Origin: Sphingomonadales bacterium
GTDB taxonomy: Bacteria; Pseudomonadota; Alphaproteobacteria; Sphingomonadales; Sphingomonadaceae
Reading direction: 5' to 3'
Assembly: GCA_027483465.1 (NCBI GenBank)
Contig: JAIXUQ010000008.1
Coordinates: 1 to 64,000, forward strand
Length of the DNA stretch: 64,000 nt
The translations under genes and the position numbers were made by a program. Under the pieces are notes generated by a model that had not been told where the DNA came from, ran no database searches, and saw only the letters and a list, made by a program, of their open reading frames with translations. Below are positions 18,730 through 37,424 of this stretch, in pieces. How positions within the stretch are numbered: the first letter of the stretch is position 1; every line of letters starts with the position of its first letter.

Positions 18730-19070
18730 CCAGCAGCGCCGCCACCCACCTCAAGGCCCGCCTGCGGACCGACCTCGCCGGCGCCTTGTCCGCCCGGCGC
18801 ACCCAAGAGGCCCGCGTGCTCCGCCTGCTCGTCGCTGCGCTCGACAATGCCGAAGCTGTGCCCATCACCGATGAACAGCGCGCCCGCCTCGTCGCCCAGG
18901 GCATCACCGAACTGCCCCGCCTTGCGCTCGACCAGGCCGCTGCCCACGCCCTCCTGTTGGCCGAAATCGCCGAACGCACCGCCAACGCCGCCACCTACGA
19001 CCAGGCCGGCCGCCCTGACGAAGCAGCCCGCCTGCACGCTCAGATCGCCGTGATCCGCCGCTACCTGTAA
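18726..19070 (+). CDS. Short GatB/YqeY-like protein
   Basis: The 114-residue protein keeps the YqeY pattern: LKARLRTDLAGALSARRTQEARVLRLLVAALDNAE aligns with the N-terminal helical part and DQAGRPDEAARLHAQIAVIRRYL with the segment before the usual C-terminal tail. YqeY proteins average about 150 residues, so this one lacks the last third; either it is a naturally short paralogue or it has lost its tail domain. YqeY is linked to tRNA-dependent amidation only through homology to GatB. The GTG start overlaps the upstream stop (GTGA at 18726-18729). Confidence 0.7.
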   Translation: MTSSAATHLKARLRTDLAGALSARRTQEARVLRLLVAALDNAEAVPITDEQRARLVAQGITELPRLALDQAAAHALLLAEIAERTANAATYDQAGRPDEAARLHAQIAVIRRYL

Positions 19071-19218
19071 CCAGTCCCCGCCGGTGCAGTTGCCCGCAAG
19101 GCAGACAGGGGTGTTACCTGCCAGGGATGCAGAAAAACCAGCCTGCGCCCCGGCCTGCGCCGGGTTCACCGGGCAGGGGACTCGTCGCTGCCCATCCTTC
19201 GGCTGGGGAGGATCGGGA

Positions 19219-21027
19219 TCAGTTGTCATCCCCCATCCGCAGCGCGGCGATGAACGCCTCCTGCGGGATGTCCACGTTGCCGTATTGGCGCATGCGCTTT
19301 TTGCCTTCCTTCTGCTTTTCCAGCAGTTTGCGCTTGCGGGTGGCGTCGCCGCCGTAGCATTTTGCGGTGACATCCTTGCGCAGGGCGGCGATGGTTTCGC
19401 GGGCGATGACCTTGCCGCCGATGGCGGCCTGGATGGGAATTTTGAACAGGTGGCGGGGGATGAGGTCTTTCATCCGTTCGCACATGTGGCGGCCGCGGGC
19501 TTCGGCCTGGCTGCGGTGGACGATCATGGAGAGGGCGTCCACCGGTTCGGAATTGACCATGATGCTCATCTTCACCAGATCGCCTTCGCGGTGGCCGATC
19601 TGGTGATAGTCGAAGCTGGCATAGCCGCGGCTGATCGATTTCAGCCGGTCATAGAAATCGAACACCACTTCGTTCAGCGGCAGTTCGTAGACGACCTGGG
19701 CGCGGCCGCCGACATAGGTGAGGTTTTTCTGGATGCCGCGCCGGTCCTGACAGAGCTTCAGGATGCTGCCCAGATATTCGTCGGGCACATAGATGGTGGC
19801 TTCGATCCACGGCTCGTCGATCTGGAGGATGCTTGACGGGTCCGGCATGTCGGCCGGGTTGTGCAGTTCGCGGCTGGAACCGTCACGCATGGCGATGTGA
19901 TAGACGACCGACGGCGCGGTGGTGATCAGATCAAGATCATATTCGCGCGACAAACGCTCCTGGATGATTTCGAGGTGCAGGAGGCCGAGGAAGCCGCAGC
20001 GGAAGCCGAAGCCCAGCGCGGCGCTGGTTTCCATTTCAAAGCTGAAGCTGGCATCGTTCAGGCGCAGCTTGGCGATGCTGTCACGCAGCTTCTCGAAATC
20101 GGCGGCATCGGTGGGGAACAGGCCGCAGAACACCACCGGCTGCACCTCCTTGAAGCCCGGCAAGGGTTCGTTGGCGGGGCGCTTGGCGTCGGTGATCGTG
20201 TCCCCCACGCGGGCCTGGGCGACTTCCTTGATCTGGGCGGTGATGAAGCCCACTTCGCCGGGACCCAATTCGGGCAATTGCTCGATCTTGGGGCGGAAGG
20301 CGCCCACCCGGTCCACCAGGTGCACGCTGTCGGCCGCCATGAACTTGATCTGCTGGCCCTTTTTGATGGCGCCATCGATCACGCGGATCAGGATGACGAC
20401 GCCCAGATAGGGATCATACCAGCTGTCAACCAGCATGGCCTTCAGCGGCTTGTCGCGGTCGCCCTTGGGCGGCGGGATGCGCTTGACGATGGCTTCCAGC
20501 ACCTCGGTGATGCCGATGCCGGATTTGGCGCTGGCCAGCACCGCGTTGGAGGCATCGAGGCCGATGATGTCCTCGATCTCCTTCTTCACCTTTTCCGGTT
20601 CGGCCGAGGGCAGATCGATCTTGTTGATCACCGGCACGATTTCATGATCATGCTCGATGCTCTGATAGACATTGGCCAGCGTCTGCGCCTCCACGCCCTG
20701 CGCCGCGTCCACCACCAGCAGCGCGCCTTCGCAGGCGGCCAATGAGCGGGAGACTTCATAGGCGAAATCGACATGCCCCGGCGTGTCCATCAGGTTCAGG
20801 ATATAATCCTTCCCGTCAGACGCGCGGTAATCCAGCCGCACCGTCTGCGCCTTGATGGTGATGCCGCGCTCCTTCTCGATGTCCATATTGTCGAGCACCT
20901 GCTCGCTCATCTCCCGCGCGGCGAGGCCGCCGGTCGTCTGGATCAGCCGGTCGGCCAGGGTGGATTTCCCGTGATCGATGTGCGCGATGATGGAGAAGTT
21001 GCGGATACGGTCGAGGTCTGCGGTCAT
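19219..21027 (-). CDS. lepA: Elongation factor 4 (LepA)
   Basis: LepA is a ribosome-associated GTPase implicated in back-translocation or in 30S assembly. The 602-residue length is normal. G motifs are intact: AHIDHGKST (G1), [10 protein letters not shown] (switch I), DTPGH (G3) and NKIDLP (G4). The C-terminal LepA-specific domain carries [25 protein letters not shown] and ends [15 protein letters not shown]. The ATG at 21027 gives the canonical [16 protein letters not shown] start. It is transcribed away from the LuxR-type gene across a 126-base gap. Confidence 0.98.
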
Positions 21028-21153
21028 GGCTGCGGCATAGGCGGTGCGTGGCCGCCATGCAACGTGACACTTGGCCTTGGGCACGCCCGGGCACCGCCCG
21101 GGGCGGCATCGCGCGGGCTTGACAGGGGCGGCGGCGAAAGCTGAACAAAAACA

Positions 21154-22098
21154 GTGCCCCGCGTTGAACAATTTCTGATCGCCTGCATGGATGCCGCCCG
21201 CGAGGTGCCGGCCGCGCGCTACATGGATTGGGCCTTTGATGCGCTGGCCGGCGTGATCCGGTTTGACAAGGCGTGCTGGGGCATTGGCACGCACGTGCCG
21301 CCCACCACCCATGCCGTGCATCTGCGCGGCCTGCCGCCGGCGCTGCTGCTGGCCTATGAAGCCGGCATCGCGCCGATCGATTTCACCCGGCAGGCGGCCG
21401 CCGCCCGGCCGGGGCGCACCATCAACGATGATGATGTGCGCGGTGATTTTCCCGATGTGATGCCGCGCATCAAGCAAAGCATCTGCATCCCCTTTGGCAT
21501 CGCCAACAGCCTGGCCACCAGCCTGGCGCAGGGCGGCGGATCGCCGCTGCACCATCTGATCATCATCTGGCGCAGCGCCGAGGCTGACCTTTTCAACGAG
21601 GATGAGCGCCAGTTGATGGAGCGCTGCGCGCCGCACATGCTGTCGGGCCTGCGCACCGCCCAGGCGCTGCAATTGGCGCGCGCCGGCCGCGATGAACGGG
21701 TGGGCGCCGCGCTGGTGGATGCCACCGGCACGCTGCACAGTTTTGATGATCAGTTCATCCGGCTGGTGCGCGCGGCGGTGCCGGATTGGAGCAGCCCGGT
21801 GCTGCCTGATGCGCTGATGCCGGTGCTGGCCGGCGGCGCCGCGCCCGATGGGCTGGCCGCCACGCTGCGGCCACTGGGGCCGCTGCTCGCCATGACGCTG
21901 ACCGGGCGGGAGACGCTGCACCTGCCACCGGGCCAACAGCAGATTGCCGCGCTTTATGCCGCCGGCATGACCTATGGCGCGATCGCAGCGCAGCTGGGCC
22001 TGGCGCCAGCAACCGTGCGCAACCAGTTGCAGCGGATTTTCAGGCGGCTGGGGGTGCGCAGCAAGGTGGCGCTGGCCGCGCGCCTGCGCGGGCAATGA
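21154..22098 (+). CDS. LuxR-type DNA-binding regulator
   Basis: A 314-residue regulator with a C-terminal HTH of the LuxR/FixJ class: the window from about residue 262 reads [20 protein letters not shown] then [19 protein letters not shown], with the usual AT-VRN-QL recognition helix. The N-terminal 240 residues show no receiver domain (no phospho-acceptor Asp arrangement) and no recognisable autoinducer-binding tryptophan pattern, so it is not a two-component regulator and its signal is unknown. The GTG start is uncertain. Next on the same strand is the PEP-CTERM gene. Confidence 0.82.
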
Positions 22099-22140
22099 TG
22101 CAGATGCATCACGCCGGCCGCTTTACAGGCGGTGGCCGGC
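22096..22140. repeat. Palindrome and hairpin after the LuxR-type gene
   Basis: A 16-base inverted repeat (TGATGC-AGAT-GCATCA, 22096-22111) begins exactly at the stop codon and is followed by GCCGGCC (22113-22119) and its complement GGCCGGC (22134-22140). Neither is followed by a run of T, so an intrinsic terminator is not obvious. They lie 94-138 bases upstream of the PEP-CTERM start and could be an operator or a processing hairpin. Confidence 0.35.
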
Positions 22141-22233
22141 GGCCACAGGCAACTGGCTGAAAACACTGAATTTCCCCGATTGGCGTGCGGTTTGCATGGC
22201 CAAGTGGCAGCGGCTGCGAAAAAGGGGAGATTC

Positions 22234-23196
22234 ATGAAGCACGTGCGTTTGGCGTTGGCATTGGCCACCCTGTTGGCCAGCCCGGTGGCACCGGCGGTTG
22301 CAGCGCCGGTCAATTCCGGTTCGGGCACGGTGAATTTCACCTTCACGCAGTTCAGTGGCCCGGCGCAGCTGACCTTTCCCCCTGGGCTGTTCGGGCCATC
22401 CGATCCAGGCTCCCGCGTCACCGGCACGGTCAATGGCCAGTTGCCGCTGCTGGGGGCGAGCGTTTCGGTCAACCCGCCCACCAATCCCATCACCTGGGAA
22501 CTGGGGACGCTCGATCTTTCGGGCACCCCGTCCGGCACCGTCACGCTGATCGCTGATCCGGTGTTCGACCCGCCGCAAAGCCACAATATCTTCAGTTGGG
22601 CGCCGGCTGCCTTCAGCAATGTGGCCGTGGGGCAGAATTTCACGCTCGGTACGCTCACGTTCCAGAACGGCAGCTGGTTTGGCGCCGCCGGCAACCCGGC
22701 CAACAATCAGGTGACGACCCTGGAGTTCCGGGTCACCACCACGTCGGGCGATGGGGCGCTGTTCAACCAGGTGCGCAACCTGGCGCTGGTGCATGTCGCC
22801 AACGCGCCCTTTCCCAACGACACCACCACCCTGGCCGGGCAGCAGGCCGCGGCGGACTGGGTGAGTCTGCTCGATCTTGACACCGGCACAACGCTGAACA
22901 GCTTCCGGGTGTTTGATCTGAACCAGACCCCGGCCGGCTTCACCAATGTGGGCACGGTTGATCTGATCGGCCGCTTCGGCTCGCTCGACATCGTGGGCTT
23001 TGCCAATGCGCAGGGCGGCTTCATCACGCCCACCGGCGCGCAACTGCCGCCCGTGGTGCCCGGTGGCGGCGGTGGCGGCGGTGTTGGCACCCCGCCGGCC
23101 GTGCCGGAACCGGCCAGCTGGGCGATGCTGATCGCCGGCTTTGGCCTGATCGGCGCTGCCCAGCGGCGGCGGCGAAAGCCCGTCTTGCCGGCCTGA
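22234..23196 (+). CDS. PEPxxWA-CTERM sorting-domain exported protein
   Basis: The 320-residue secreted protein has an N-terminal signal peptide (MKHVRLALALATLLASPVAPAVA) and a C-terminal sorting tag: VPEPASWAMLIAGFGLIGAA followed by RRRRK. The tag has the PEPxxWA variant, a hydrophobic helix and a basic end, and such tags are thought to be processed by an exosortase-type system. A glycine-rich linker (GGGGGGGVG) precedes the tag. The central region is beta-rich without recognised motif. A strong GGGGAGA ribosome site (22224-22230) precedes the ATG. No exosortase gene lies in this window. Confidence 0.92.
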   Translation: MKHVRLALALATLLASPVAPAVAAPVNSGSGTVNFTFTQFSGPAQLTFPPGLFGPSDPGSRVTGTVNGQLPLLGASVSVNPPTNPITWELGTLDLSGTPSGTVTLIADPVFDPPQSHNIFSWAPAAFSNVAVGQNFTLGTLTFQNGSWFGAAGNPANNQVTTLEFRVTTTSGDGALFNQVRNLALVHVANAPFPNDTTTLAGQQAAADWVSLLDLDTGTTLNSFRVFDLNQTPAGFTNVGTVDLIGRFGSLDIVGFANAQGGFITPTGAQLPPVVPGGGGGGGVGTPPAVPEPASWAMLIAGFGLIGAAQRRRRKPVLPA

Positions 23197-23267
23197 AGCC
23201 GCAGCTTGCTTGACCGGACGCGGCCGGGGCGCATAAGCCCCGGCCGTTCCCAGTTCCGGAGGCAGTC

Positions 23268-24566
23268 TTGAGCATCAGCATCGCCATCATCGGCGCCGGC
23301 CCCGCCGGCTATTACACGGCGGAGGCCGCGCAGAAACAATGGGGCGCCGATGCGCGCATCGACATCATCGATCGCCTGCCCAGCCCCTATGGCCTGATCC
23401 GCGCCGGCGTGGCGCCCGATCACCAGTCGATCAAGGCGGTCACCAAGCGGTACGAGGCGACCAATCTGGCGCCGGGCACCCGGCTCGTCGGCCATGTCGA
23501 GGTGGGCCGCGATGTGGGCATCGACGAACTGCTGGGCCTTTATGACGCCGTTGTGCTCTCGGTGGGCGCCCCGCTTGACAAGCCCATCGGCATTCCCGGC
23601 GATGATCTGCCCGGCGTGGTCGGTTCGGCGGCCTTTGTCGGCTGGTACAATGGCCATCCCGATCATGCCGGATTGCAGGTTGATCTGTCGCATCACGGCG
23701 CCGCCATCATCGGCAACGGCAATGTGGCGATCGATTGCGCCCGCATCCTGGCCAAGACGGTGGACGAACTGGCCACCACCGATATCGCCGGCCATGCGCT
23801 GGCGGTGCTGGCCGGCAGCGCGGTGCGCGATATCCACATCGTTGGCCGGCGCGGGCCGCACCAGGCCAGCTTCACCACCAAGGAGGCCGGCGAACTGGGC
23901 CATCTGGTGCGCACCCAGGCCATCGTGAAGCCGGCTGACCTGCCGCCCGAGGCCGAGGATGCCGCGCTGGAGCCGGGCCACCGCAAGATGGTGACGCACC
24001 TGCGCAGCTTTGCCGGCCAGCCGCGGGGCGACAAGCCGGGCACGATCAATTTCGAATTCTTCCGCCGCCCGGTGGCGGTTGAAGGCCATGGCAAGGCTGA
24101 GCGGCTGATCGTGGAGACCACCCGGCTGGAAAATGGCCAGGCCGTGGGCACCGGCGAACTGCACGCCATCCCCTGCGGCCTGGTGATCGCCTGCATCGGT
24201 TATCGCACCGCGGCCATTCCGGGTGTTGCCTGGTCTGACAAGCTGGGCCGGTTCCCCACCGATGATGCCGGGCGGATCGCGCCCGGCCTTTATGCCAGCG
24301 GTTGGGCCCGGCGCGGCCCCAGCGGCACCATCGGCACCAACCGGCCCGATGGGTTCAGCGTGGTCGCCGCCATGGTGGAAGACGGGATCAGCGCCAGCGG
24401 CAAGGCCGGCGGGCAAGGGCTGGACGCGCTGCTCGCCGCCCGCGGCTGCCGAGCCACCAGCTTTGCCGATTGGCAGAGGATCGAGGCCGCCGAAATCGCT
24501 GCCGCCCGCAGCGGCGCCCCGCGCGAGAAGATCGTGGACGTGGCCGCGATGCTGGCGGCGCTCTAG
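23268..24566 (+). CDS. Ferredoxin--NADP+ reductase, adrenodoxin-reductase type
   Basis: The 432-residue FAD enzyme passes electrons between NAD(P)H and a ferredoxin, as in FprA and adrenodoxin reductase. The FAD motif IIGAGPAGYYTAEAA starts the protein; SPYGLIRAGVAPDHQ is a hallmark of the family. The nucleotide motif GNGNVAIDCARIL and the C-terminal GWARRGPSGTIGTN complete it. The TTG start at 23268 is supported by a GGAGG site at 23258-23262, five bases upstream. Its stop overlaps the PP2C stop on the other strand (CTAG, 24563-24566). The partner ferredoxin is not adjacent. Confidence 0.94.
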   Translation: MSISIAIIGAGPAGYYTAEAAQKQWGADARIDIIDRLPSPYGLIRAGVAPDHQSIKAVTKRYEATNLAPGTRLVGHVEVGRDVGIDELLGLYDAVVLSVGAPLDKPIGIPGDDLPGVVGSAAFVGWYNGHPDHAGLQVDLSHHGAAIIGNGNVAIDCARILAKTVDELATTDIAGHALAVLAGSAVRDIHIVGRRGPHQASFTTKEAGELGHLVRTQAIVKPADLPPEAEDAALEPGHRKMVTHLRSFAGQPRGDKPGTINFEFFRRPVAVEGHGKAERLIVETTRLENGQAVGTGELHAIPCGLVIACIGYRTAAIPGVAWSDKLGRFPTDDAGRIAPGLYASGWARRGPSGTIGTNRPDGFSVVAAMVEDGISASGKAGGQGLDALLAARGCRATSFADWQRIEAAEIAAARSGAPREKIVDVAAMLAAL

Positions 24567-25264
24567 AACTGCACCAGCACGAAGGTGAGATTGTCGAAGG
24601 CGCCGGCGCGGTAGATCCGGTCCTTCAGCGCTTCGGGGCGGGGGAGGCTGGTCTGCACCAGCGCCAGTTGCAGGGCTTCGTGGCTGATCTCGCCGTGCAC
24701 GCCATCGGTGCACAGCAGGAACAGGTCGCCCGGTTCGATGCCCACCGTGCCGAACTGCGGGTCGGCCTCCGGCTGGGTGCCGATGCAGCGGGCGATATGG
24801 TCCCGGTCAGGCTCGGTGTGGATGGTCTCCTCGGTATGGATGCCGGCATCGATCAGGAAATTGCCATAGCTGTGATCGCGGGTGAACGGCACCAGCTCGC
24901 CGCCGCGCAGGCGATAGACCCGGCTGTCCCCGCACCAGCACAGCAGCGCCAGGCCCTCGCGATGGGCCATGGCGGCCAGCGTGGTGCCGGAACGCTGGCC
25001 GGCGGCGGTGGCGGCGGCGAAGATGGTGCCGCTGGCGGTGTCGATCGCCGCCAGCATGGCCGCCGCCGTTTCCTCCACCGTCGCCGCCGGCGCCATGGCG
25101 GCCAGCGCATCCACCACCGCCTGGGCCGCCTTGTCACCATCGGCCAGCCCGCCCAGGCCATCGGCCACCGCCCACAGGCCCAGATCATCGCGGGCCAGCA
25201 ACCGGTCCTCGTTGCGCTGGCGACGAAGGCCGATGTCGCTGAGGGAGAGGCTGACCGGTGGCAT
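24563..25264 (-). CDS. PP2C-family serine/threonine phosphatase
   Basis: The 233-residue metal-dependent phosphatase has the PP2C motif order: RRQRNED (Asp for the metal), WAVADGLGG, the GTTLAAM block, CWCGDSRVYRLR, LLCTDGVHGEI and FDNLTFVLVQF. This matches PstP/PrpC-type enzymes that remove phosphate from Ser/Thr kinase substrates or anti-anti-sigma factors. No kinase is adjacent. The stop shares CTAG with the ferredoxin reductase stop; the start lies 137 bases from tRNA-Pro on the other strand. Confidence 0.93.
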   Translation of the reverse strand: MPPVSLSLSDIGLRRQRNEDRLLARDDLGLWAVADGLGGLADGDKAAQAVVDALAAMAPAATVEETAAAMLAAIDTASGTIFAAATAAGQRSGTTLAAMAHREGLALLCWCGDSRVYRLRGGELVPFTRDHSYGNFLIDAGIHTEETIHTEPDRDHIARCIGTQPEADPQFGTVGIEPGDLFLLCTDGVHGEISHEALQLALVQTSLPRPEALKDRIYRAGAFDNLTFVLVQF

Positions 25265-25354
25265 GGCGTGCGGCTCCGTTCCAACAGGGCTGATCCGTTT
25301 TGGCACCACCGCGCGCCGGCGGCAACAATCTTGGCCGGCGATGCAATCAGGCGG

Positions 25355-25383
25355 TTGCAAGCGCCGGACGCCGTCGCTATAGG
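25355..25383 (+). promoter_or_regulatory. Sigma-70-like promoter for tRNA-Pro
   Basis: A -35 box TTGCAA (25355-25360) and a -10 box TATAGG (25378-25383) are separated by exactly 17 bases. Transcription would begin near 25390, about a dozen bases before the tRNA. The boxes match the consensus at most positions, and no other gene starts downstream before the tRNA, which supports the assignment. Confidence 0.6.
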
Positions 25384-25401
25384 GCCACTTCCGCGCAAGG
25401 T

Positions 25402-25478
25402 CGGGGCGTAGCTCAGCCTGGTAGAGCACTGTCTTCGGGAGGCAGGGGCCGGAGGTTCGAATCCTCTCGCCCCGACCA
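25402..25478 (+). tRNA. tRNA-Pro (anticodon CGG)
   Basis: A 77-nt cloverleaf fits well: acceptor stem CGGGGCG paired with CGCCCCG, D stem GCTC/GAGC with the AGCCTGGTA loop, anticodon stem CTGTC/GGCAG around the loop TTCGGGA (anticodon CGG), and T stem GGAGG with TTCGAAT. The 3' ACCA is encoded. The fold resembles E. coli tRNA-Pro. It decodes CCG, the commonest proline codon in GC-rich genomes. Confidence 0.97.
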
Positions 25479-25521
25479 GCGCGGTTTCCCACACAATAAC
25501 GTCCTCCCCACTCCGCCCGTC

Positions 25522-25539
25522 GCCGCTGGCGGCATTTTT
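25522..25539 (+). terminator. Weak terminator-like hairpin after tRNA-Pro
   Basis: GCCG-CTGG-CGGC (25522-25533) is followed by ATTTTT. The stem is only four base pairs, so this is a weak candidate for termination of the tRNA transcript. Nothing else was seen between the tRNA and the lipoprotein start at 25637. Confidence 0.25.
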
Positions 25540-25636
25540 GCCGCGCGGGTGCTGGCAGGGGTTCAGTTTTGATAAGCTTCTGTCTACAAGCGCGTGGCAG
25601 GGCGGTGCCTTGCCAATGGCTTGGGGGGATTAGGTG

Positions 25637-28312
25637 ATGAAGCTGGCACGTCTTGCGATGCTGATCAGTGCCAGTGCGCTGGTGACGGCCTGTGGCGGCA
25701 GCGGCGGTGGCGGCGGCCTGGTGGTGACCAACCCACCCGCGCCCGCGCCGACGCCTGCGCCAACGCCGACTCCGACCCCAACGCCGACTCCGACGCCCAC
25801 ACCGACGCCCACGCCGACACCAACGCCAACACCCACGCCGACCCCCACGCCAACGCCGACCCCGACGCCAACGCCGGCCCCGACGTCGCTGATCGGCCTG
25901 TCGGTCAGCCAGAGCTTTGCCACCGATGCCGTCACCGGCACGGTCAGTGTCAACCGCACCACCGAAGCCGCCACCGCCACCTCGGCGCGCGCCACCGTCA
26001 CCATCGCCTACAGCCAGGCCACCGGCGGCTACACCGTCACCGTCGGCAGCCGCAGCCTCAGCTTCCTGCCCGCTGATCTTGATGCGGCGCAGAGCAGCCC
26101 TGGTGCTGCCGTCTATATCCGCCGCAACGGCAGCACCACCGACAGCCTGACGCTGACCCGCGCCGGCACCAGCGGGCGGCTCACCTTCCAATATGTTGGC
26201 GCCGGTTTCTGGCAGCGCACCACCGAGAATTCCGCGACCGTGGACGGCATTTTCGATGCCTTCACCTATGGTTTCCCCACCACGGCCGCCGCCGTGCCGC
26301 GCACCGGCAAGGCCAGTTACGACATTGATCTTTTGGGCGTGATTTCGCCGGTGCAGGCAATTTCGGGCGGCGGCACCTTGCAGGTGCTGTTTGACAATGG
26401 CCTGATGCTGATCAGCGGCACGCTCGATCCCACCGCCGCCAGCCCGCGCGCCGAAGTGTTCAGCGGCGATGCGCGATTGACCAGCGGCAACGCCTTCACC
26501 GGCAGCCTGGGCTTTTTCCAGTTCGGCAATTTCACCGGCAGCCTGGATGGCAAATTCTATGGCCCCGAAGCCCAGGAGGTGGGCGCCGCCTTCTTCCTGG
26601 CCGAACCGGGCGGCCGCCGCGCCGTGGGCACCATCACCGGCCGGCGCGGCGCCGGCGCCGGCGGCAACACCAGCTTGGCTGAACAGACGCTCAGCGATTT
26701 CTACCCCGGGGTCGGCGGCCGGCTGGGCGCGCGCATCACCGGCACCTCGGGCACCAACACCACGCCCACCACTTATTCCAACCTGTCGGCCGCCAACGGC
26801 GATTTCGTCGTGAATTACAACGCCGGCACCCGGCTCTACACCGTGGTCGCCGGCGATCGCAGCTTCCCCGAAGGCAGCGCGTCGCTGGCGACCACCACCG
26901 AGACATTCGCGCGCGCCAGCTATTCCAACCGCCTGAACCTGGTTGGCAGCAGCGGCGGCGCGGTGTTTGACACGCTGCGCTTTGTCGGCGGCGGCGTGTG
27001 GACCAAGCGCGTCGGCAACGCGAGCACCACCGATTATCTGATCGACGAATTCGCCTTTGGCATCCGCACCCCGGCCTCGGCGATGCTGCGCACCGGGGAG
27101 GCGGCCTATAATTTCGCCCTGCACGGCACCGCGGCCGATCCCGATCAGCGCAATTTCATGTTTGTGGGCGGCAGCGGCGTGCTGCGCGCCAATTTCGCCA
27201 GCGGCGCCATCAGCCTCACCGGCGCCGCCCGCTACCGGGAGGACAGCACCATCTCCGGCTTCCCGCCGGTCACCGCCACCGGCGATTTCACCGCCACAGC
27301 CAGCATCACATCGGGCAGCAATGGCTTTGCCGGCACCGCCAGCATGACCGGGCTGGGCAATTACACCGGCGCGCTCACCGGCAATTTCTTCGGCCCGGCG
27401 GCCGAGGAGGTGGGCGGCGCCTTCAGCCTGTCCGACGGTGCCGGGCGGCTGGTGGGCAGCTTCGTCGGTATCAAGGATGATGCGATCCTCGCCGCCGGCC
27501 AGCCGCTGCTCAATGTGGCCAGCCCGACGACGTTCGAAGCCTTTGCCAATGCCACCACCACCGGCGTGGGCCGTGCCCCCAGCGGCACTGCCGTCACTTA
27601 TTCGCCGGCCACCGCTTCCTATCGCGTCACCGGCGATGCCGCGGAATTTTCGCGCCTCGGCCTCCCGGCCGCCTTCCTCACCAGCTTCGGGCCTGAAAAC
27701 CGGGTGGCGGGCGAAACCAACGCCAGCTTCACGGTGGGCCGCACCATCATCGAAGGCCCGCCGGTGCGCCAGCGGGTGACTGGCCGGCTGTTCAACCCCG
27801 GCAGCGGCAACACCAGCCTCGCGCTCACCTATACCAGCTTCATGGATGTGCTGGTGGAGGAGGTGGACGCCGGCGGCCAGCTCAGCGGTCCGCGCGCCTA
27901 CAACCGGCTGTGGCTCCCCTTTGGCGTTGCCACCCCGGCCTCGGCACTGCCGCGCAGTGGCACCGCCACCTATGATGGCATCGCCTTTGCCCAGGGCGTC
28001 ACGCCCACCAGCTTCAACGTGGAGGCCAGCGGCACCAGCCGCATGGTGGCCAATTTCGCCGACAACAGCTTCACCGCCACCGTCACCCTCACGCCGGTGG
28101 GCGGCGGCAGTGCCTTTGCGCCGTTCAATTTCGGCGGCTTCATCGCCACCAACGGCTTTGCCGGCAACGGCAACAACGGCAATATCGGCCAGTGGGCCGG
28201 CCGCTTCTTTGGCCCGGCCGCCAATGAATTCGGCGCCGCGTTCGATGCCACGCGCGACGATGCCAATGGCCGCACCACCTTCTCGGGCGTGGCGGTGGGC
28301 CGGCGGAACTGA
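25637..28312 (+). CDS. Surface lipoprotein with three TbpB-like modules, candidate Slam substrate
   Basis: The 891-residue protein starts with a lipoprotein signal (lipobox LVTAC, Cys19), a Gly-rich stretch, then a long Pro-Thr linker (residues about 38-83). Three modules of roughly 275 residues follow. Each has a TG(K/E/T)AxY strand and a late strand reading [28 protein letters not shown] or [14 protein letters not shown] (starting near residues 306, 583 and 856), a pattern of the transferrin-binding-protein-like barrel domain. The DUF560/Slam gene begins eight bases downstream. I infer a surface-exposed lipoprotein exported by that Slam; the ligand is unknown. A GGGGGGA site (25623-25629) favours ATG 25637 over GTG 25634. 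Confidence 0.85.
25748..25885 (+). repeat. Pro-Thr coding repeat (linker of the surface lipoprotein)
   Basis: A hexanucleotide-like CCN-ACN repeat encodes 19 uninterrupted Pro-Thr pairs (25760-25873) flanked by Pro-Ala pairs. Third positions vary freely (CCA, CCC, CCG; ACA, ACC, ACG, ACT), so the repeat is not identical at DNA level. The linker probably forms an extended stalk between the lipid anchor and the folded modules. Copy number could vary by slippage. Confidence 0.9.
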
Positions 28313-28320
28313 GCGCACCG

Positions 28321-29631
28321 GTGGCACCGGCGTTGATTGCGGCCGTGCTGGCCGGGCAGGCCGCCATGGCCCAACCGGCCCCCGCGCCGGTCACCGTCGA
28401 GCTGTCGGCCGCGCAGGTGCTGGATCTGGCCAGCGCCAAGGGCGAATCGGGCGATATCGCCGGTGCCATCACCCTGTTTGCCGCACTGGCCAAAGACCCG
28501 GATGTCGATATCCGTTCCGAAGCCCGCTTCCGCCACGGCCGCCTGCTGGAAGGGCAGCGCCGCTATGCCGATGCCGCCGTGCTGTATCGCGCCATCCTGG
28601 ATGAACGGCCCGATGCCCAGCGCGTGCGCCTGCAACTGGCACAGGCGCTGCTGCTGGCTGGCCGCGAAGGCCAGGCGGCGCAAACCCTGCGCCAGGCCCA
28701 GGCCGCCGGCCTGCCGCCCGACATCACCCGCATCGTCGCCCAGTTCCAGAGCGCGCTGCGCGCCATGGCCCCGGTGGGCGGATCGCTGGAGGTGGCGCTG
28801 GCCCCGGCCAGCAACATCAACCGCGCCCCGCGCGGCGCCACATTGGATACGATCATCGCGCCGCTGCAACTCTCCGAAGACGGGCAGGCGCAATCCGGCC
28901 TGGGGGTGAAGCTGGCCGGGCAGGGCTATGTGCGCCTGCCGGTCGCCCCGCGCCTGCGCTGGACGGCGCGCGCCTCGGGCCAGGGCTTTCTTTACGGCAA
29001 GGACCAGTTCAACGATATCGCCGCCAGCCTGGAAACCGGGCTGGAATGGAGCCTGGGCCGATCGCGCCTGCAACCCGGCCTGGGCCACACGCGGCGCTGG
29101 TTTGGCGGCCGGCCCTTCACCATCGCCAACACCGCCAGCCTCAGCTGGCTGCGCCCCATTGGCAAGCGCACGCAACTGGATGTCTCGGCCAGCGCTGGCC
29201 ACAATGATTTTCAGCAGAATGATCTGCAGGATGGCGCCGCCATCGATCTGGGCGTGGCGCTGGAACGCGCCTTTGATGCCAGGAGCGGCGGCCGCATCAG
29301 CCTTTCGGCCCAGCGGCTTGCGGCGCGCGATCCCGGCTATGCCAGCGTGGGCGGCGGGGTGAATCTGCTTTACTACCGCGAAGTTGGCCGCTCCACCCTG
29401 TTCCTGTCGGGCGGCGTCTCGCATCTGGGCGGGGATGACCGGCTGTTCCTGTTCCCGCGCCGGCGCATCGAATGGCTGGTGCGCACGGCGGCTGGCATCA
29501 CCTTGCGGCAGGTGCAGGTGCGCGGCTTTTCCCCGGTGATCCGCATCAGCCAAGAGCGCAATTTTTCCACCGTCGGCCTGTTTGATTTCGCCCGTACCGG
29601 CGTTGACGTGGGCATCACCCGCGCATTCTAA
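28321..29631 (+). CDS. Surface lipoprotein assembly modifier (Slam, DUF560) family protein
   Basis: The 436-residue outer-membrane protein has a signal peptide (MAPALIAAVLAGQAAMAQ), an N-terminal TPR-like helical region (residues about 28-140: ASAKGESGDIAGAITLFAA, RHGRLLEGQRRYADAAVLYR, RVRLQLAQALLLAGR), and then a beta-barrel ending SPVIRISQERNFS...TGVDVGITRAF, which I recognise as the Slam/DUF560 C-terminal signature. Slams move lipoproteins such as TbpB and fHbp to the cell surface. Neighbouring the putative TbpB-like lipoprotein by eight bases, it is most likely its dedicated exporter. The start is a GTG. Confidence 0.85.
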   Translation: MAPALIAAVLAGQAAMAQPAPAPVTVELSAAQVLDLASAKGESGDIAGAITLFAALAKDPDVDIRSEARFRHGRLLEGQRRYADAAVLYRAILDERPDAQRVRLQLAQALLLAGREGQAAQTLRQAQAAGLPPDITRIVAQFQSALRAMAPVGGSLEVALAPASNINRAPRGATLDTIIAPLQLSEDGQAQSGLGVKLAGQGYVRLPVAPRLRWTARASGQGFLYGKDQFNDIAASLETGLEWSLGRSRLQPGLGHTRRWFGGRPFTIANTASLSWLRPIGKRTQLDVSASAGHNDFQQNDLQDGAAIDLGVALERAFDARSGGRISLSAQRLAARDPGYASVGGGVNLLYYREVGRSTLFLSGGVSHLGGDDRLFLFPRRRIEWLVRTAAGITLRQVQVRGFSPVIRISQERNFSTVGLFDFARTGVDVGITRAF

Positions 29632-29709
29632 GGCGTGCCTTGCGCGGCGCGGATTTCCGCGCCAGAGAGGCGCGCGGTGCGCCGGGCGGCGGCTTTTCGG
29701 AGTGGCATG

Positions 29710-30876
29710 ATGAAAATCGCGGTTGTCGGTCTCGGCTATGTCGGCCTGTCCAACGCGGTGCTGCTGGCACAGGCCCACAGCGTGACGGCGGTGGACGTGG
29801 TGGCGGCCCGGGTTGATCAGGTGAACGCCCGCCAAAGCCCGATTGTCGATGCCGAACTCGAACAGTTTCTCGCCACCCGCAGCCTTGATCTGGTGGCCAC
29901 CACCGATCTGGCGGCGGCCTGCCGCGATGCCGAACTGGTGGTGATCGCCACGCCCACCGATTATGATCCGGCCACCAACCATTTCAACACATCGTCGGTG
30001 GAAAATGTCGCCCGCGCCGCGCTGGCGGTGAACCCCGGCGTGCCGATCATCGTCAAATCCACCATCCCGGTCGGCTTCATCGCCCGGGTGCGGCGCGAAC
30101 TGGGCAGCAACAGCATCGTGTTCAGCCCGGAATTCCTGCGCGAAGGCCGCGCGCTCTATGACAATCTCCACCCCTCGCGCATCATCGTCGGCGATCGCGG
30201 CGCCATCGGCCAGATGTTTGCCGCGCTGATGCAGGCCGGCGCCGAAAAGGCCGATGTGCCCGTCCTCCTCACCGATCCGGCCGAGGCCGAGGCGATTAAG
30301 CTGTTTGCCAACACCTATCTCGCCATGCGCGTCGCCTTCTTCAACGAGCTTGACAGCTATGCCATGGCGCACGCCATGGACACGCGCCAGATCATCGAGG
30401 GCATCGGCCTCGATCCGCGCATCGGCACCCACTACAACAACCCGTCCTTTGGTTATGGCGGCTATTGCCTGCCCAAGGATACCAAGCAGTTGCTGGCCAA
30501 TTATGGCACGGTGCCGCAAAATCTGATCGCCGCCATCGTGGATGCCAACCGCACCCGCAAGGATTTCCTGGCTGAACAGATCCTTGCCAAGGGCCCGCGC
30601 ACCGTGGGTGTCTACCGGCTGGTGATGAAGGCCAACAGCGACAATTTCCGCCAGAGCAGCATCCAGGGCATCATGAAGCGCATCAAGGCGCGCGGCATCA
30701 GGGTGGTGCTGTTTGAACCGGCGCTGGAGCAGGCGGAATTCTTCGGCTCCCCCGTCATCCGCGATCTGGCCCAGTTCAAGGCCGAGGCCGACGTGATCCT
30801 GGCCAACCGCATGAGCGACAGCCTGGCCGACGTGGCGGACCGCGTGTTCACCCGCGATCTGTTCGGGGCGGATTGA
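29710..30876 (+). CDS. UDP-glucose 6-dehydrogenase
   Basis: The enzyme oxidises UDP-glucose to UDP-glucuronate (or a related UDP-sugar) with two NAD+. The 388-residue protein starts with a Rossmann motif [14 protein letters not shown]; later motifs include the NAD-binding STIPVGF, the [23 protein letters not shown] block with the catalytic cysteine, and [11 protein letters not shown]. The protein is in the short dehydrogenase class. GGAG at 29699-29702 favours the ATG at 29710, with 29707 as an alternative. The stop overlaps the TTG of the alpha-galactosidase gene. A role in surface polysaccharide synthesis is likely. Confidence 0.93.
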
Positions 30877-32942
30877 GCCGGCTGTTCGCCCTTCACGGCC
30901 GCCAGTCCAGCCTGGTCATCGAACAGGCGGCCGGCGGCCTCATCTGGCGCCACTGGGGGGCGAGGCTGCCGCCGGATGTCGTGGCCGGGCCGGGGCCGGC
31001 CGAGCGCCCGGTGCCGACCTTTTCGCTGGATGCGCCATTGCCCTTCACCATCCTGCCGGCCTTCGGGCTGGGCTGGTTCGGCCAGAGCGCGCTGCTCGCC
31101 CACCGCGATGGCCGGGATTTCGCGCAAGGCTTTGATGCGGTCGCCGTGGTTGAACAGGGCGATGCGCTGGCCTGCACGCTGGATGATGCGGTGGCCGGCA
31201 TCCGCATCCGGCTTGATCTGCGGCTCGATCCGGAAACCGACGTGCTCGAAATCCGCACCCGCCTGACCAACAGCGGGGCAGGCGTGCTGGATGTGCAGTG
31301 GCTGGCCGCCGCCACCCTGCCGCTGCCGGCCGGCATCAGCGCGGTGCGCCACTTCACCGGCCGCCACAATCGCGAATTCGCCGAGCAGACCGATGCGCTC
31401 GGCCACTTCATCTGGCTGCGCGAAAACCGTCACGGCATCAGCAGCCACGGCCATTTCCCCGGCGCGGTGGTGCTGGCGCCCGGCACCGGCGATCATGCCG
31501 GCCCGGCCTGGGGCGCGCAACTGGCCTGGTCGGGCAATCACCGCCAGCTGATCGAGCGGCTGGATGATGGCCGCAGCCAGTGGCAGCTGGGCGGCTGGCT
31601 GGCCCCCGGCGAGGGGCGGCTGGCCCCCGGCGAAACGCTGGAAAGCCCGGCCGTGCTGGCCTGTTTCTCCCCCCACGGGCTGGGCGGCGTGGGGCGCGCG
31701 TTCCATGCCGCCGTGCGCGCCCGCCAGGCCCGGCCTGGCCCGCGCCCGGTGCTGATCAACAGCTGGGAAGGCTTCTACTTCGATCATGATCCGGCGCGCA
31801 TGATGGCGCTGGCCGATGCCGCCGCGGCGATCGGGGTGGAACGGTTCGTGCTGGATGATGGCTGGTTTGCCGGCCGCGATGATGACCGCACGTCGCTGGG
31901 CGATTGGCGGGTGGATGGGCGCAAATATCCCGAAGGCTTGCGCCCGCTGGCCGATCATGTGCGGGGGCTGGGCATGGAATTCGGCCTGTGGGTGGAACCG
32001 GAAATGGTCAGCCCCAACAGCGATCTGTTCCGCGCCCACCCCGATTGGGCCCTGCAACTGGTCGGCCGGCAGCAAGCCACGGGGCGCAACCAGTTGGTGC
32101 TCGATCTCACCCGGCCGGCGGTGACCGACCATCTGTTCAGCGCCCTGTCAGGGTTGGTCGCCGATCTGGGCGTGGCCTATCTGAAATGGGATCACAACCG
32201 CGATCTGGCGCCCGCCGCTGATGCTGCCGGCCGGGCGGCCTATCGCGGGCAGGTGGCGGCCACGTGGGCGCTGATCGACCGGCTGCGCGCCGCGCATCCG
32301 GGGCTGGAGATTGAATCCTGCGCCGGCGGCGGCGGGCGCATTGATGCCGGCATGGCGGCCCGCGTCCAGCGCTTCTGGGCCAGCGATTGCATCGATGCAA
32401 GGCAGCGCATCGGCCTGCAACGCGGCTTCCTGCAATTTCTGCCGCCCGAAATGCTGGGCGCCCATATCGGCGCCGAACGCTGCCACACCACCGGCCGCCG
32501 CTTCACCCTGGGCTTTCAGGCGCTGGTCGCCACGCAGGGCCATTTGGGCCTGGAATTTGATCTCACCCGGCTGGATGCGGCGCAGCGGGCGGACCTGGCC
32601 GGCTGGATCGCATTTTACAAACAGCACCGCCACCTGCTGCACGGCACGGTCTGGACCGGCACCGCGCCCGATGGGGTGGCCTGGCACGCCGCCGGGCATG
32701 AGGACGAATTTCTGCTGATCGTCTATCGCACCGAAATGATGCTGCACCGCCATGCCGCGCCGCTGCCGCTGCCCTTCATCGGCGATGGCCAGTGGCAGGT
32801 GGCCGAGGTGCGACCCGGCGCAACCAGCCCGGCCATCACCTGTTCCGGCCACTGGCTGCACAGCGCCGGCCTCACCATCCCGCCCGGCCTGCCCGATACG
32901 GCGACGGCCTGGTGCCTCAGCCGGCTCAACGCGCCGGCCTGA
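30873..32942 (+). CDS. Alpha-galactosidase, GH36 family
   Basis: A 689-residue enzyme of the GH36 fold that hydrolyses alpha-galactosyl groups. The nucleophile is Asp440 in YLKWDHNRD and the acid/base Asp505 in [10 protein letters not shown]; other family motifs are [42 protein letters not shown] and [12 protein letters not shown]. No signal peptide is seen, so it is cytoplasmic. The TTG start overlaps the stop of the dehydrogenase (TTGA at 30873-30876). The 3' end overlaps the convergent serine hydrolase gene by 17 bases. Confidence 0.93.
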
Positions 32943-34425
32943 AGCTCCAGTCCAGCGTCTGCACCAGCACGTCGGGGGTGGGGGCGAGCAGCAGATCGGC
33001 GGTGATGGTGCCGTTGGCGCAGGCCCAGCTGATGATGCCGCTCAGCGCGCCGTCGGGCTTGAGGGTGGGCGCCGCGCAGCGGCCGGCCTGGGCCTTGATG
33101 GCGGCGATGTCGGCGGCGCGGTGGGCGGCGTCGCGGTCCATCAGCAGGTTCACCGCCAGCAGCGCCGGCTCGGCATCCACCCGCCCGCTGGCCAGCACGC
33201 GCCCGGCAAAGGCGGCGGCGGCGGTGAGGGCAGGGGAGGCGGGGATGGCATCGCGCGGCATCAGCCCGGCCTGATCGATGGCCAGCAGCGTCTGCCACGC
33301 CAGATCGGCCGGCCCGGCATAGGTGTGGTTGGTGAAGATGAAGACGCCCCAGCCGCGATCGGGCGCGATCAGCATATGGCTGCCATAGCCGGGATAGCCG
33401 CCGCCGTGGAAGGCGACCCGGCCCAGCCGGCAATCATCGCCGATGCGAAGCCCGCCGCCATAGACGACCGCGACCGAACAGATGGACGGCAGCATGTCCC
33501 CCGGCCGGTTCATGCGGCGCGGGCTGCCTTCGCCGCGGCCCAGCCGGCGGATGGTGGCGCGCCCCGGCGCTTCGGCCGTGCCCGGCGCGGCGGCCGGCCA
33601 GGCGGACAGCAGATGATCGATCCAGCGGGCATAATCCGGCACGGTGGTGATCACGCCGCCCATCGCACCGAACGCGCCGGGCCCCATGTCAGGCTCGCGC
33701 TTCCAGGTGGAATCCTCCCAGCGCCAGCCGGTGGCCAGTTCGGCGGCCGGCACATCGGCCAGATTGAACGTGGTGCTGGCCATGCCCAGCGGCTGAAAAT
33801 GCCGGCGGGCGATCTCGGCCTCGAACGGCCGGCCGCTCACATTGCTGATGATGCGGCCCAGGATGGCATAGCCCAGATTGCTGTATTCATGGGTCAGCCC
33901 GGTGGCGCGGGTGAAGGGCACGCCGGCTTTCAGCAGCGCGGTGAATTCGGCCTCGGGCAGCGGCGTCTGCCGGTCTCCCCACGGATCGTCGGTGACGAAG
34001 CCGGCCATGTGGTGCAACAAATCGGTGATGGTGAGATGGTCGCCCCAGCCCTTCAGCTCCGGCACGTGGGTCACCACCTTGTCGTCCAGCCGCAGCCGGC
34101 CTTCGGCGGCCAGTTGCTCGATGGTCAGGGCCGTGAAGGCCTTGGTCATGCTGGCGATGCGGAAACGGGTGGTGGGCGCAACCGGCCGGCGGCTGTCGGC
34201 ATCGGCCAGGCCGGCGTGGCCGAAATGCACCAGCCCCTCGCCGCGCTTCACCACACCCCAGGCGATGCCCGGCCAGTTGCGCATGGCCGCCGTGTCCTGC
34301 ATCGAGGCATCGATGCGGGCGGCAAGATCGGGTGGCAGCGGCGCGGCCGCCGCGGGTGCCGCGACGAGCAGCAGCGGCGTAGCGACAGCAGGAGCCGCCA
34401 ACAAAAACGCCGCCAGCGCTCTCAC
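32926..34425 (-). CDS. Exported serine hydrolase, beta-lactamase/class C fold
   Basis: A 499-residue protein with a signal peptide (MRALAAFLLAAPAVATPLLLVAAPAAAA). The catalytic SxxK is in IASMTKAFTALT, the YxN motif is YSNLGYAILGR, and the third motif reads FHGGGYPGYGSHM. These mark the penicillin-binding/esterase superfamily, including beta-lactamase class C and D-aminopeptidase relatives. The substrate is unknown; peptidase, esterase or cell-wall activity is possible. The GTG start overlaps the stop of the DUF3299 gene, so the gene may be part of the following transport unit or only co-transcribed with it. Confidence 0.88.
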   Translation of the reverse strand: MRALAAFLLAAPAVATPLLLVAAPAAAAPLPPDLAARIDASMQDTAAMRNWPGIAWGVVKRGEGLVHFGHAGLADADSRRPVAPTTRFRIASMTKAFTALTIEQLAAEGRLRLDDKVVTHVPELKGWGDHLTITDLLHHMAGFVTDDPWGDRQTPLPEAEFTALLKAGVPFTRATGLTHEYSNLGYAILGRIISNVSGRPFEAEIARRHFQPLGMASTTFNLADVPAAELATGWRWEDSTWKREPDMGPGAFGAMGGVITTVPDYARWIDHLLSAWPAAAPGTAEAPGRATIRRLGRGEGSPRRMNRPGDMLPSICSVAVVYGGGLRIGDDCRLGRVAFHGGGYPGYGSHMLIAPDRGWGVFIFTNHTYAGPADLAWQTLLAIDQAGLMPRDAIPASPALTAAAAFAGRVLASGRVDAEPALLAVNLLMDRDAAHRAADIAAIKAQAGRCAAPTLKPDGALSGIISWACANGTITADLLLAPTPDVLVQTLDWSFRPAR

Positions 34426-34904
34426 ATCTCTTTCCCGTCGCTGATCTTGTAGAACACGCCGCCGCCATCGGTGCCGGCCAGTTCCAGCGTGCCTTCGATG
34501 GTGCGCACGTCATAATTCATCGGGATGGCCGAGGACACCTTCACCTCGATGAACTGCTGCGGGCCGGGGTTGAGGTGGAAGGGGCAATCGGGCGGATAGG
34601 CCAGCAGCACGAAATGGCTCTGGTTGGCGCCCTTGGCCAGCGGCAGCATATAGCCGTTGATCTTCACCCGCTTGCCGGCCAGCGACTTGACCGCGGCAGG
34701 GTAAAGCGGCTTGACGGCGCCGGTCTTGGCGGCGCGCGGGTCTTCCTGGGTGGATTCCAGCACCTGCCAGGCGACGCCGCCGGGCGGGGTGGGGGCCGGT
34801 TTCCAGATCGATTCCGACGGTTTCAGCGGCCCCTGCGTCTGGGCCAGCACGGCCGGCCCGGCCAGCAGCAGCACGGCGGCGGCAGCGATGTTGCGGATGC
34901 TCAT
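34422..34904 (-). CDS. DUF3299-type exported protein
   Basis: A 160-residue protein with a signal peptide (MSIRNIAAAAVLLLAGPAVLA). The core KRVKINGYMLPL, SHFVLLAYPPDCPFH and QQFIEVKV matches the DUF3299 family. The cysteine in PPDCPFH is conserved in this group. Similar proteins sit beside MacB-type ABC genes and metal-related loci. The ATG at 34904 is used because a GGGAGGA-type site precedes it; an ATG at 34919 would put that site inside the gene. It is the third gene after the permease and ATPase, suggesting a shared pathway. Confidence 0.85.
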   Translation of the reverse strand: MSIRNIAAAAVLLLAGPAVLAQTQGPLKPSESIWKPAPTPPGGVAWQVLESTQEDPRAAKTGAVKPLYPAAVKSLAGKRVKINGYMLPLAKGANQSHFVLLAYPPDCPFHLNPGPQQFIEVKVSSAIPMNYDVRTIEGTLELAGTDGGGVFYKISDGKEM

Positions 34905-34921
34905 GGGTCCTCCCTTCATGA

Positions 34922-36232
34922 TCAGCGGGCGTTGGCCAGCGTTTCGGCAATATCGGATTTCAGCACCCTGAACGCCGGGATCAGCGCGGCGATCAGGCCG
35001 ATGGCCAGCGCCGCGCCGGCGATCAGCGCCTCGCCCGGATGCACGCTGAACCCATCCAGGCCAAGCTGTTGCAATTGGCGGAAATTGGCGGCGGCCAGCG
35101 CGATCACGCCATGGCCCAGCGCCAGGCCCAGCGCGGTGCCGGCGGCGGCCAGGATCAGCCCCTCGCTGGCCACCTGGCCGATGATGGCGGCGCGGCTGGC
35201 GCCGATCACGCGCAGCATCGCCATGTCACCCTCCCGCTCCTTGAGCGCGGTGAGCAGCGCGACGAAGATCGACAGGCCGGCGGTGATCATCAGCAGCACG
35301 GCAAAGGCCCGCACCGCATCCAGCCCCACGCCCACCAGCGCCAGCAACCGCGAGATTTCCACCGCCGGCACCGCCGATTGCAGATCGGTCTGGCGGTTGA
35401 TGAAGCCGGGCAGCCGCACCGCCGCGATCGGGCTGTTGAAGCGCACCAGCACCGCGGTCACCTCGGCCGGGCGCAGATGGGCGGCATGTTCCTCGGCCGT
35501 CTCGCCCTCGTGGCCGGCGGGCAGGGCGGCATGGTCATGATCCTCATGCTCATGCTCTTCGCCCTTGGCGTCGTGATCATGGTCATGCTCCCCGTCCTCA
35601 TGCTCGTGCGGGGCCTCGATGCCGTGCACCGCCCACACGCTGTCGATGCGGGTCAGGATCAACCGGTCGATCACCGTGCCGGTGGGCTTCAGCCGGCCCA
35701 CCACCATGAACGGCGCCTCGTTATGCTTGGGGCCATTCTCGCTGGACGACAGCCCGTGGCCGCCGATAAAGCGCTGGCCCAGGCCGGCACCGGTGCCGGC
35801 CGCCACCTCGGCACCGATCACGGCTTCCATCTTCTGCTGATACATGCGGCCATCGGCCAGCGTCGCGCCCAGCAGCGCCGGATAGGCCGGCTCGGTGCCC
35901 ACGATACGATAACCGCGGAAATTGTCCCCCAGCGCCAGCGGGATGGCCTCGGCCACGCCCAGTTGCCGGCGCAGCAGATCAACCGTGCCCAGCGGCACGT
36001 TGCCGGTCGGGATATCGACATGATAGACCGACGAGAGGATCAGTTGCAGCGGCGAGCCCTTGGCCCCCACCACCATGTCGATGCCTTGTGCATCCCGGTC
36101 AAACCGGTCTTCCAACTGGGCCGAGAACAGCAGCAGGATGACGAGGCTGGCGACGCCCAGCGCCAAGAGGATGATGTTGAGCGCGGTGTTGAGCGCCCGG
36201 TCCCGCAGATAGGCAAGGCTGAGCCCGATCAT
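34922..36232 (-). CDS. FtsX/MacB-like ABC permease with histidine-rich loop
   Basis: The 436-residue permease has an N-terminal membrane segment (about 16-38), a large extracytoplasmic domain, and three more membrane helices near 305-330, 350-375 and 395-425, as in MacB/LolE. The extracytoplasmic domain contains an unusual stretch (residues 209-252) with 12 histidines and many Asp and Glu residues, pointing to metal binding. It overlaps the ATPase gene by four bases (36229-36232), and the DUF3299 gene follows after 17 bases. I infer a metal-linked export or assembly function. Confidence 0.9.
   Translation of the reverse strand: MIGLSLAYLRDRALNTALNIILLALGVASLVILLLFSAQLEDRFDRDAQGIDMVVGAKGSPLQLILSSVYHVDIPTGNVPLGTVDLLRRQLGVAEAIPLALGDNFRGYRIVGTEPAYPALLGATLADGRMYQQKMEAVIGAEVAAGTGAGLGQRFIGGHGLSSSENGPKHNEAPFMVVGRLKPTGTVIDRLILTRIDSVWAVHGIEAPHEHEDGEHDHDHDAKGEEHEHEDHDHAALPAGHEGETAEEHAAHLRPAEVTAVLVRFNSPIAAVRLPGFINRQTDLQSAVPAVEISRLLALVGVGLDAVRAFAVLLMITAGLSIFVALLTALKEREGDMAMLRVIGASRAAIIGQVASEGLILAAAGTALGLALGHGVIALAAANFRQLQQLGLDGFSVHPGEALIAGAALAIGLIAALIPAFRVLKSDIAETLANAR
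35477..35608 (-). other. Histidine-rich segment of the permease (metal-binding candidate)
   Basis: Codons 209-252 of the permease give 12 His and many Asp/Glu residues in 44 positions, with HEHEDGEHDHDHD and EEHEHEDHDH as the densest parts. This is a likely Zn2+ or other divalent metal site on the outer face of the inner membrane. It is absent from typical LolE or MacB proteins. Confidence 0.85.
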
Positions 36233-36930: not shown

Positions 36931-37210
36931 TGGCGACGGCAACCGGAGCCGCAGGGGCCGGTGTCGCAGCGGCGGTCTGCACCGCATCGCCCATCCCCAG
37001 GCGCTTCAGCATGGCCAGACGGGCATTCTCGATGGCTTCCTGGCGGCGCTGCTCGGCGATGCGGGCAGCGGCCTCAGCATAGGCGCCGGCATAGGGATCG
37101 GTGCCATCCGGGGCATAGTGGCTATAGCCCGGCATGCCATCAAAGGCGCAGGCGGTGGCCTGTGCGGCAATCACGGCGGCAGCAACGATGCCAAGGGCGA
37201 TCAGGCGCAT
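36917..37210 (-). CDS. Small secreted protein of unknown function
   Basis: The 97-residue protein has a signal peptide (MRLIALGIVAAAVIAAQATA) followed by a Cys and AFDGMPGYSHYAPDGTDPY. Residues about 45-75 form a possible helix (AEAAARIAEQRRQEAIENAR), and the tail is Ala/Pro-rich. The lipobox is imperfect (ATAC), so it may be cleaved by signal peptidase I rather than lipidated. It heads the ABC gene set, its end overlapping the ATPase start. The function is not known. Confidence 0.65.
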   Translation of the reverse strand: MRLIALGIVAAAVIAAQATACAFDGMPGYSHYAPDGTDPYAGAYAEAAARIAEQRRQEAIENARLAMLKRLGMGDAVQTAAATPAPAAPVAVANANP

Positions 37211-37424
37211 GAGACACTCCCTGTATGCGACTCTACATTGTTCACCATGTCACATCGCCTGCCGCCGTGCAACGTGGCTGCGTGGTGGGCAAATGCCGCA
37301 GGGACTTGGCCGGCCAAGGATATAGAGTAACATTGAAACCGGCGCGTGACGGTGCCCGGTCTTGCCAAGCCGCTGGCTGGCGGGCAAGGGGCGGCAGGAA
37401 CAGACGAAGCGGATAGGGGCGACG

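Follow-up and report, generated by a model that had tools for sequence, protein, structure and literature searches.

A stalked three-module lipoprotein and its probable Slam-type exporter in a sphingomonad, with internal and last barrels in separate classes

Two adjoining genes in a 64,000-nucleotide stretch of DNA from a Sphingomonadales bacterium (contig JAIXUQ010000008.1, positions 1 to 64,000; hereafter the window) raise the question of whether a lipoprotein with three similar modules is carried to the cell surface by the protein encoded next to it, and of which module would serve as the export signal. Both genes are intact and lie on the + strand, with 8 bases between the stop codon of the first (the client) and the start codon of the second (the exporter). 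The original prediction, made from the sequence alone, had read them as a TbpB-like surface lipoprotein and a Slam-type exporter of a sphingomonad. Analysis of gene anatomy, family relationships and conserved pairing agreed with this reading and revealed two distinct classes of barrel. We conclude that the pair very probably represents a Slam-exported, stalked surface lipoprotein together with its exporter.

The client gene (25637-28312) starts with ATG at 25637, with an in-frame GTG at 25634, and encodes a predicted surface lipoprotein of 891 residues. As predicted, a lipoprotein signal and a Pro-Thr stalk are present: a short signal peptide (25637-25693) leads to a lipobox assigned by motif (VTA-Cys19, with G at +2), followed by a glycine-rich tether and 19 uninterrupted Pro-Thr units (residues 42-79; 25760-25873). 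Three modules of 263-273 residues each follow, at 25883-26671, 26672-27490 and 27491-28309. Their pairwise identity is 27-35%, and the predicted strand motif occurs once per module, at residues 306, 583 and 856. BLASTP between modules gave E-values of 1e-24 for modules 1 and 2, and of 1e-4 and 7e-6 for modules 1 and 3 in the two directions; a chance repeat was therefore rejected. Pfam TbpB_B_D matched the client over three stretches (70.4 bits, cut-off 26; E 2.5e-19), and FHBP_C also matched (31.9 bits, cut-off 28.1). Our own barrel profile likewise found three barrels, at ~26300-26641, ~27089-27469 and ~27953-28300, each preceded within its module by ~140-155 residues. When a profile of the client modules was compared with solved structures, LbpB (E 3.5e-9) and TbpB (E 1.4e-8) were matched, best in their C-terminal halves. 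Matches to the client elsewhere in its own genome reached residues 5-139 at most, a stretch that takes in the signal and the stalk and goes no further than the beginning of module 1.

Structures of modules 2 and 3 were predicted with AlphaFold2, run on alignments of six module rows. Mean predicted local distance difference test (pLDDT) values were 52.6 and 52.1, respectively. The eight-strand barrel half of module 3 was modelled more confidently than its handle half, and the region ahead of the barrel was mostly below pLDDT 50 in both models. Foldseek matched module 3 to the TbpB C-lobe (4.2e-8), NHBA (1.2e-7) and whole TbpB, with fHbp and haemophilin lower; module 2 was matched to TbpB (3.0e-6), then NHBA, haemophilin and the LbpB N-lobe. 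Among the 50 matches listed, the best query-normalised template modelling score (TM-score) was 0.46 for module 3 and 0.39 for module 2; these values are low because the handle half is unreliable.

The exporter gene begins with GTG at 28321, eight bases beyond the client end at 28312, ends at 29631 and encodes a TPR-plus-barrel protein of 436 residues, in accord with the original prediction. Its TPR region (residues 69-140; 28525-28740) matched Pfam TPR_19 above the cut-off (35.7 bits, cut-off 25) and TPR_Slam at 34.5 bits (cut-off 35.2). The predicted SlipAM barrel spans residues 163-436 (28807-29628); the match to Pfam SlipAM (PF04575) covered residues 163-355 at 18.4 bits (E 0.0017, cut-off 22). 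An alignment of 41 exporters, which holds that of locus L038 and leaves out those of L057, L109, L111 and L112, was also searched. At E<=0.001, SlipAM matched 40 of these 41 members, the exception being the window protein (0.0017), and TPR_Slam matched 38. A paralogue of the exporter, encoded by the window's own genome and 34% identical to it over residues 25-436 (E 1.7e-32), exceeded the SlipAM cut-off, with PF04575 matched over positions 4-288. Because the paralogue is over the cut-off and 40 of 41 members match SlipAM, the window exporter is, by homology through its relatives, a Slam (DUF560-type, type 11 secretion) outer-membrane protein. The predicted DUF560 match thus held by way of the relatives and the paralogue; the window protein taken alone lies under the Pfam cut-off. 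When the exporter by itself was searched against the PDB with phmmer, the best E-value was 0.022, and the 60 listed of 124 matches between the 41-row profile and solved structures all fell in the TPR part; no solved Slam barrel was therefore found by these sequence searches. The same genome holds a second Slam and a single-barrel cargo on contig C117 (locus L040, 8176-9534 (-) and 9531-10805 (-)). That region also encodes a BcsQ-like cellulose-synthesis ATPase and a CSS-motif EAL protein, and in the barrel tree described below its cargo barrel sits in a long-branched group of nine single-module barrels.

Pairing of the two families was assessed in 149 genomes of the bacterial family, own included. 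The exporter was matched (E<=1e-10) in 42 genomes and TbpB_B_D (E<=0.001) in 39, with both in 38 (Fisher p 1e-29). We then used a set of 44 loci, comprising the window and 40 other loci (together 41 of the 48 exporter matches) and the loci L109, L111 and L112 of the genus. Three loci stand outside the Slam counts: L038 (taken to be the same contig as L109), L039 (= L113, a broken locus) and L110 (whose exporter runs off the contig end). Barrel cargo was found near 42 of the 44 exporters, on the same strand, and none was found on the opposite one; L055 and L065 showed no cargo near the exporter. The gap was <150 bp in 37 of 44 loci by hand count, with the cargo upstream in 31 and downstream in 6. 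Cargo and exporter appeared to overlap in some loci, most of all in L057 and L067, because the exporter start was called too far upstream. By script, 43 of the 50 cargos (49 from the 44 loci plus that of L110) have a lipobox in their first 70 residues; among the other seven, the L110 cargo has one by eye and four begin inside a module as called. Three modules were counted in nine cargos, two in 12 and one in 29, the module numbers being lower bounds because the cargo of L041, the second cargo of L048, and the cargos of L060 and L063 (two-module) begin inside a module as called. The Slam family membership and TbpB-like client of the original prediction were upheld. Its description of a multi-module client as unusual was not, since 21 of 50 cargos have two or three modules and the class is already in print.

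Several loci depart from a simple pair. In L050 (genome G138), five barrel cargos with between one and three modules each surround a single Slam, and the Slam in L045 (G031) is flanked by two single-module cargos with a 4-base overlap on each side. A TbpB_B_D match without an adjoining Slam was found at G065:C28:464-739, in a genome with no exporter match at E<=1e-10. In G107, a TbpB_B_D cargo (G107:C1:2667840-2668196) and its Slam share a contig but lie ~700 kb apart.

In a tree built from 80 barrels, all 30 internal barrels grouped together (support 89/82). A further branch (98/84) separates these 30 and two single-module barrels from the remaining 48, of which 21 are last and 27 single barrels. 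These support values come from few columns and a bootstrap that had not settled. Class profiles, made without the tested locus and with close relatives left out together, classified 30/30 internal and 21/21 last barrels correctly. Modules 1 and 2 of the client belong to the internal class and module 3 to the last class. When single-module barrels were scored with the profiles, 18 of 29 were last-like and 11 of 29 internal-like. Slam distances were not correlated with last-barrel distances (rho 0.07, Mantel p 0.23) among 18 cargo/Slam pairs (in L048 and L050, a second cargo that was farther off or larger had been removed); first-barrel distances gave rho 0.15 (p 0.10), so the last barrel does no better. 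In published work the C-terminal barrel has been proposed as a putative targeting domain, with the remaining barrels in the effector part (PMC12282271). The split between internal and last barrels, as seen in sequence comparison, fits that proposal without proving it.

The original prediction had also noted that no TonB receptor was adjacent, and none was found by an own-genome receptor profile in window positions 18001-38000. Plug-domain matches of the window lie at 14735 and 40821, and the genome holds 53 such matches, 52 of them over the cut-off. A TonB receptor was present within ~7.5 kb in 9 of the 44 loci against 9.5 expected, i.e., at background; the expectation is rough, assuming 16.5 kb per locus and own-genome density when some flanks are as short as 1.5 kb. 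Receptors were sought with a profile built on 20 seeds from the own genome, and only open reading frames (ORFs) >350 residues were counted; a receptor-like 309-residue piece in L054 fell below this limit and would give 10/44. Since receptors occur at background near the 44 loci, an iron-piracy partnership is not supported by gene linkage. When 406 neighbour ORFs were clustered, the largest clusters spanned 11, 8 and 7 loci and resembled, by eye, an ATP-binding cassette (ABC) ATPase, a peptidase-like lipoprotein and UvrA. These look like housekeeping genes, and recurrent neighbours were rejected as a clue to function. One TonB-receptor-like cluster (the fourth largest) was found in 6 loci, and a second one in 3. 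A Skp/OmpH-family gene is present in the genome; such genes are common, and 6 of 14 control genomes have one.

By analogy with other Slams, from which both export and the use of Skp are carried over, the pair may work as follows. The client would be produced as a Sec-dependent lipoprotein, receive its lipid at Cys19 and be taken to the outer membrane, and a Skp-like chaperone, needed in the route worked out for TbpB (PMC9090332), would keep it unfolded in the periplasm. The downstream Slam would recognise the third (last) barrel and pass the client to the surface. There the lipid would anchor the protein and the Pro-Thr stalk would lift the modules clear of the outer leaflet. Modules 1 and 2 of the predicted surface protein would serve as effector lobes for ligand binding. 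The likeliest ligand would be a glycan or protein of a surface or matrix, bound in adhesion and not for delivery to a TonB receptor. An adhesion or glycan role is quite possible, short of probable.

Several observations weigh against this scheme. The client scores below the cut-off of the NCBIfam model 'Slam-dependent surface lipoprotein' (75.6 vs 80 bits), and the exporter by itself lies below the cut-offs of both Pfam Slam models, TPR_Slam and SlipAM. The exporter N-terminus as called from the GTG start has no charged residue ahead of its hydrophobic stretch, and the handle halves of modules 2 and 3 are unreliable. The low exporter scores would also suit a client that is lipidated yet periplasmic, with the adjoining barrel protein serving another role. 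This is highly improbable, given the pairing conserved across many genera, the near-perfect co-occurrence and the SlipAM match in all but one of the aligned exporters. Instead, the pair might serve to acquire iron or haem, with the client acting as a surface haemophore or metal receptor that passes its cargo to an unlinked TonB-dependent receptor. The best-characterised relatives TbpB, LbpB, HpuA and haemophilin act in this way (PMC5449769, PMC12282271), haemophilins are among the fold matches, the many plug-domain proteins of the genome make an unlinked partner possible, and TonB receptors recur near some loci. Against this, the pair has no adjoining receptor, receptors near the 44 loci are at background, and the commonest neighbour families look like housekeeping genes; we regard iron or haem acquisition as unlikely.

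The position of the export signal is less certain than the pairing. The two barrel classes could reflect one old duplication followed by vertical descent, with any of the three barrels able to serve export. An old duplication alone would yield the same tree, and 11 of 29 single-module cargos, which are presumably exported, score nearer the internal class. The absence of correlation between Slam and last-barrel distances favours this explanation as well, and means that co-evolution lends the targeting claim no support. The single-module barrels are ambiguous: 27 of 29 join the last class in the tree, which argues against duplication alone, as does the published proposal of a C-terminal targeting domain (PMC12282271), and 18 of 29 do so by score. 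We consider a duplication without specialised targeting a real possibility, short of an even chance, and favour the last (third) barrel as the probable export signal. The split opens an inexpensive and clear-cut way to locate the Slam export signal within a multi-barrel cargo.

Within the genus, the exporter was matched in 6 of 24 genomes, own included; the match in G161 consisted of the exporter's last 52 residues only. In the corresponding locus (L039, 8001-9482; metagenome-assembled genome [MAG] REEB437, judged the same record as G161 and L113), the client from its start to part of module 2 is fused in frame to the last 52 exporter residues. The rest of both genes is missing and the neighbours are conserved. 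A different remnant was found in G020 (L124, 5240-5529), where ~33 codons of the exporter tail lie behind the same tRNA-Pro; no client match was seen in that locus, and the sequence downstream is ~80% alike to that of L109. To look for an empty site, the downstream dehydrogenase was searched in the 24 genus genomes; it was matched in 10, and no tRNA lay in the flanks of those loci. G020 and G167 were then compared over wider stretches, and G167 had the dehydrogenase alone in common with the window stretch compared. Because two relatives keep two different remnants, these sequences suggest that the pair is dispensable; the remnant genomes are multi-contig assemblies, one of them a MAG, and assembly error is possible.

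The flanks of the pair contain a tRNA-Pro (CGG) gene at 25402-25478 on the + strand (ARAGORN), a landmark upstream of the system and outside it. By Pfam, the neighbouring genes encode a PP2C phosphatase, a pyridine-nucleotide oxidoreductase, a UDP-glucose/GDP-mannose dehydrogenase, a melibiase-family (GH36) enzyme and a beta-lactamase-fold hydrolase. A protein with a PEP-CTERM sorting motif is encoded at 22234-23196, three protein genes ahead of the client. A promoter scan found none (0.3 expected), and six terminator-like sites were found against 3.3 expected; neither result is informative.

We compared the pair with described systems. Grossman et al. 2025 named 'Sphingomonas surface proteins' as cargo co-occurring with cluster 1 type 11 secretion system (T11SS) proteins (PMC12282271). 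That paper describes N-terminal Pro-Thr repeats, multiple TbpBBD domains and two to three handle-barrel pairs in 30 such proteins (18 lipoproteins and 12 soluble), and counts them among cargo classes without a characterised representative. No functional study of them was recognised among the papers listed in the literature searches, as judged by titles and the starts of abstracts. The window client resembles this class in its 19 Pro-Thr units, three TbpB_B_D barrels, lipoprotein nature, T11SS partner and sphingomonad host; compared by description with PMC12282271, and handles apart, the pair showed no difference in the features tested. The predicted host was borne out by an 84%-identical protein in a Sphingomonadales bacterium MAG. 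The architecture was thus already described in 2025, and the window pair adds a member; the internal/last barrel split and the remnants are modest additions, with TonB receptors at background. A broader reading, that sphingomonad Slams provide modular surface display without TonB receptors, is tentative and somewhat doubtful. An old C-terminal barrel lineage would act as the export key, and a separate internal lineage would have supplied, by duplication and variation, the binding lobes carried on a Pro-Thr stalk. If true, such display would give interchangeable adhesins or glycan-binding proteins with one, two or three lobes.

The exporters of environmental Sphingomonadaceae form subcluster 1C of the type XI secretion system (TXISS) (Grossman et al. 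2021, PMC8406197). As a DUF560 protein of a sphingomonad, the window exporter probably belongs to this subcluster as described there. Like TbpB and LbpB with their Slam in Neisseria, the pair includes tandem lipidated lobes, each with a barrel and a putative handle, for probable export by a Slam, and its modules match the C-terminal halves of those proteins in sequence and fold; the client differs from them in having three modules in place of two lobes, a Pro-Thr stalk and no adjoining TonB receptor partner (PMC5449769, PMC9090332). An ordinary two-lobe TbpB was rejected on the three modules and the lack of a TonB receptor next door. NilC/NilB of Xenorhabdus, for which a non-iron, glycan-related colonisation role has been proposed, resembles the predicted client and exporter in that NilC is a Slam-exported lipoprotein with a C-terminal eight-strand barrel; NilC has two domains and one barrel (PMC9100927).

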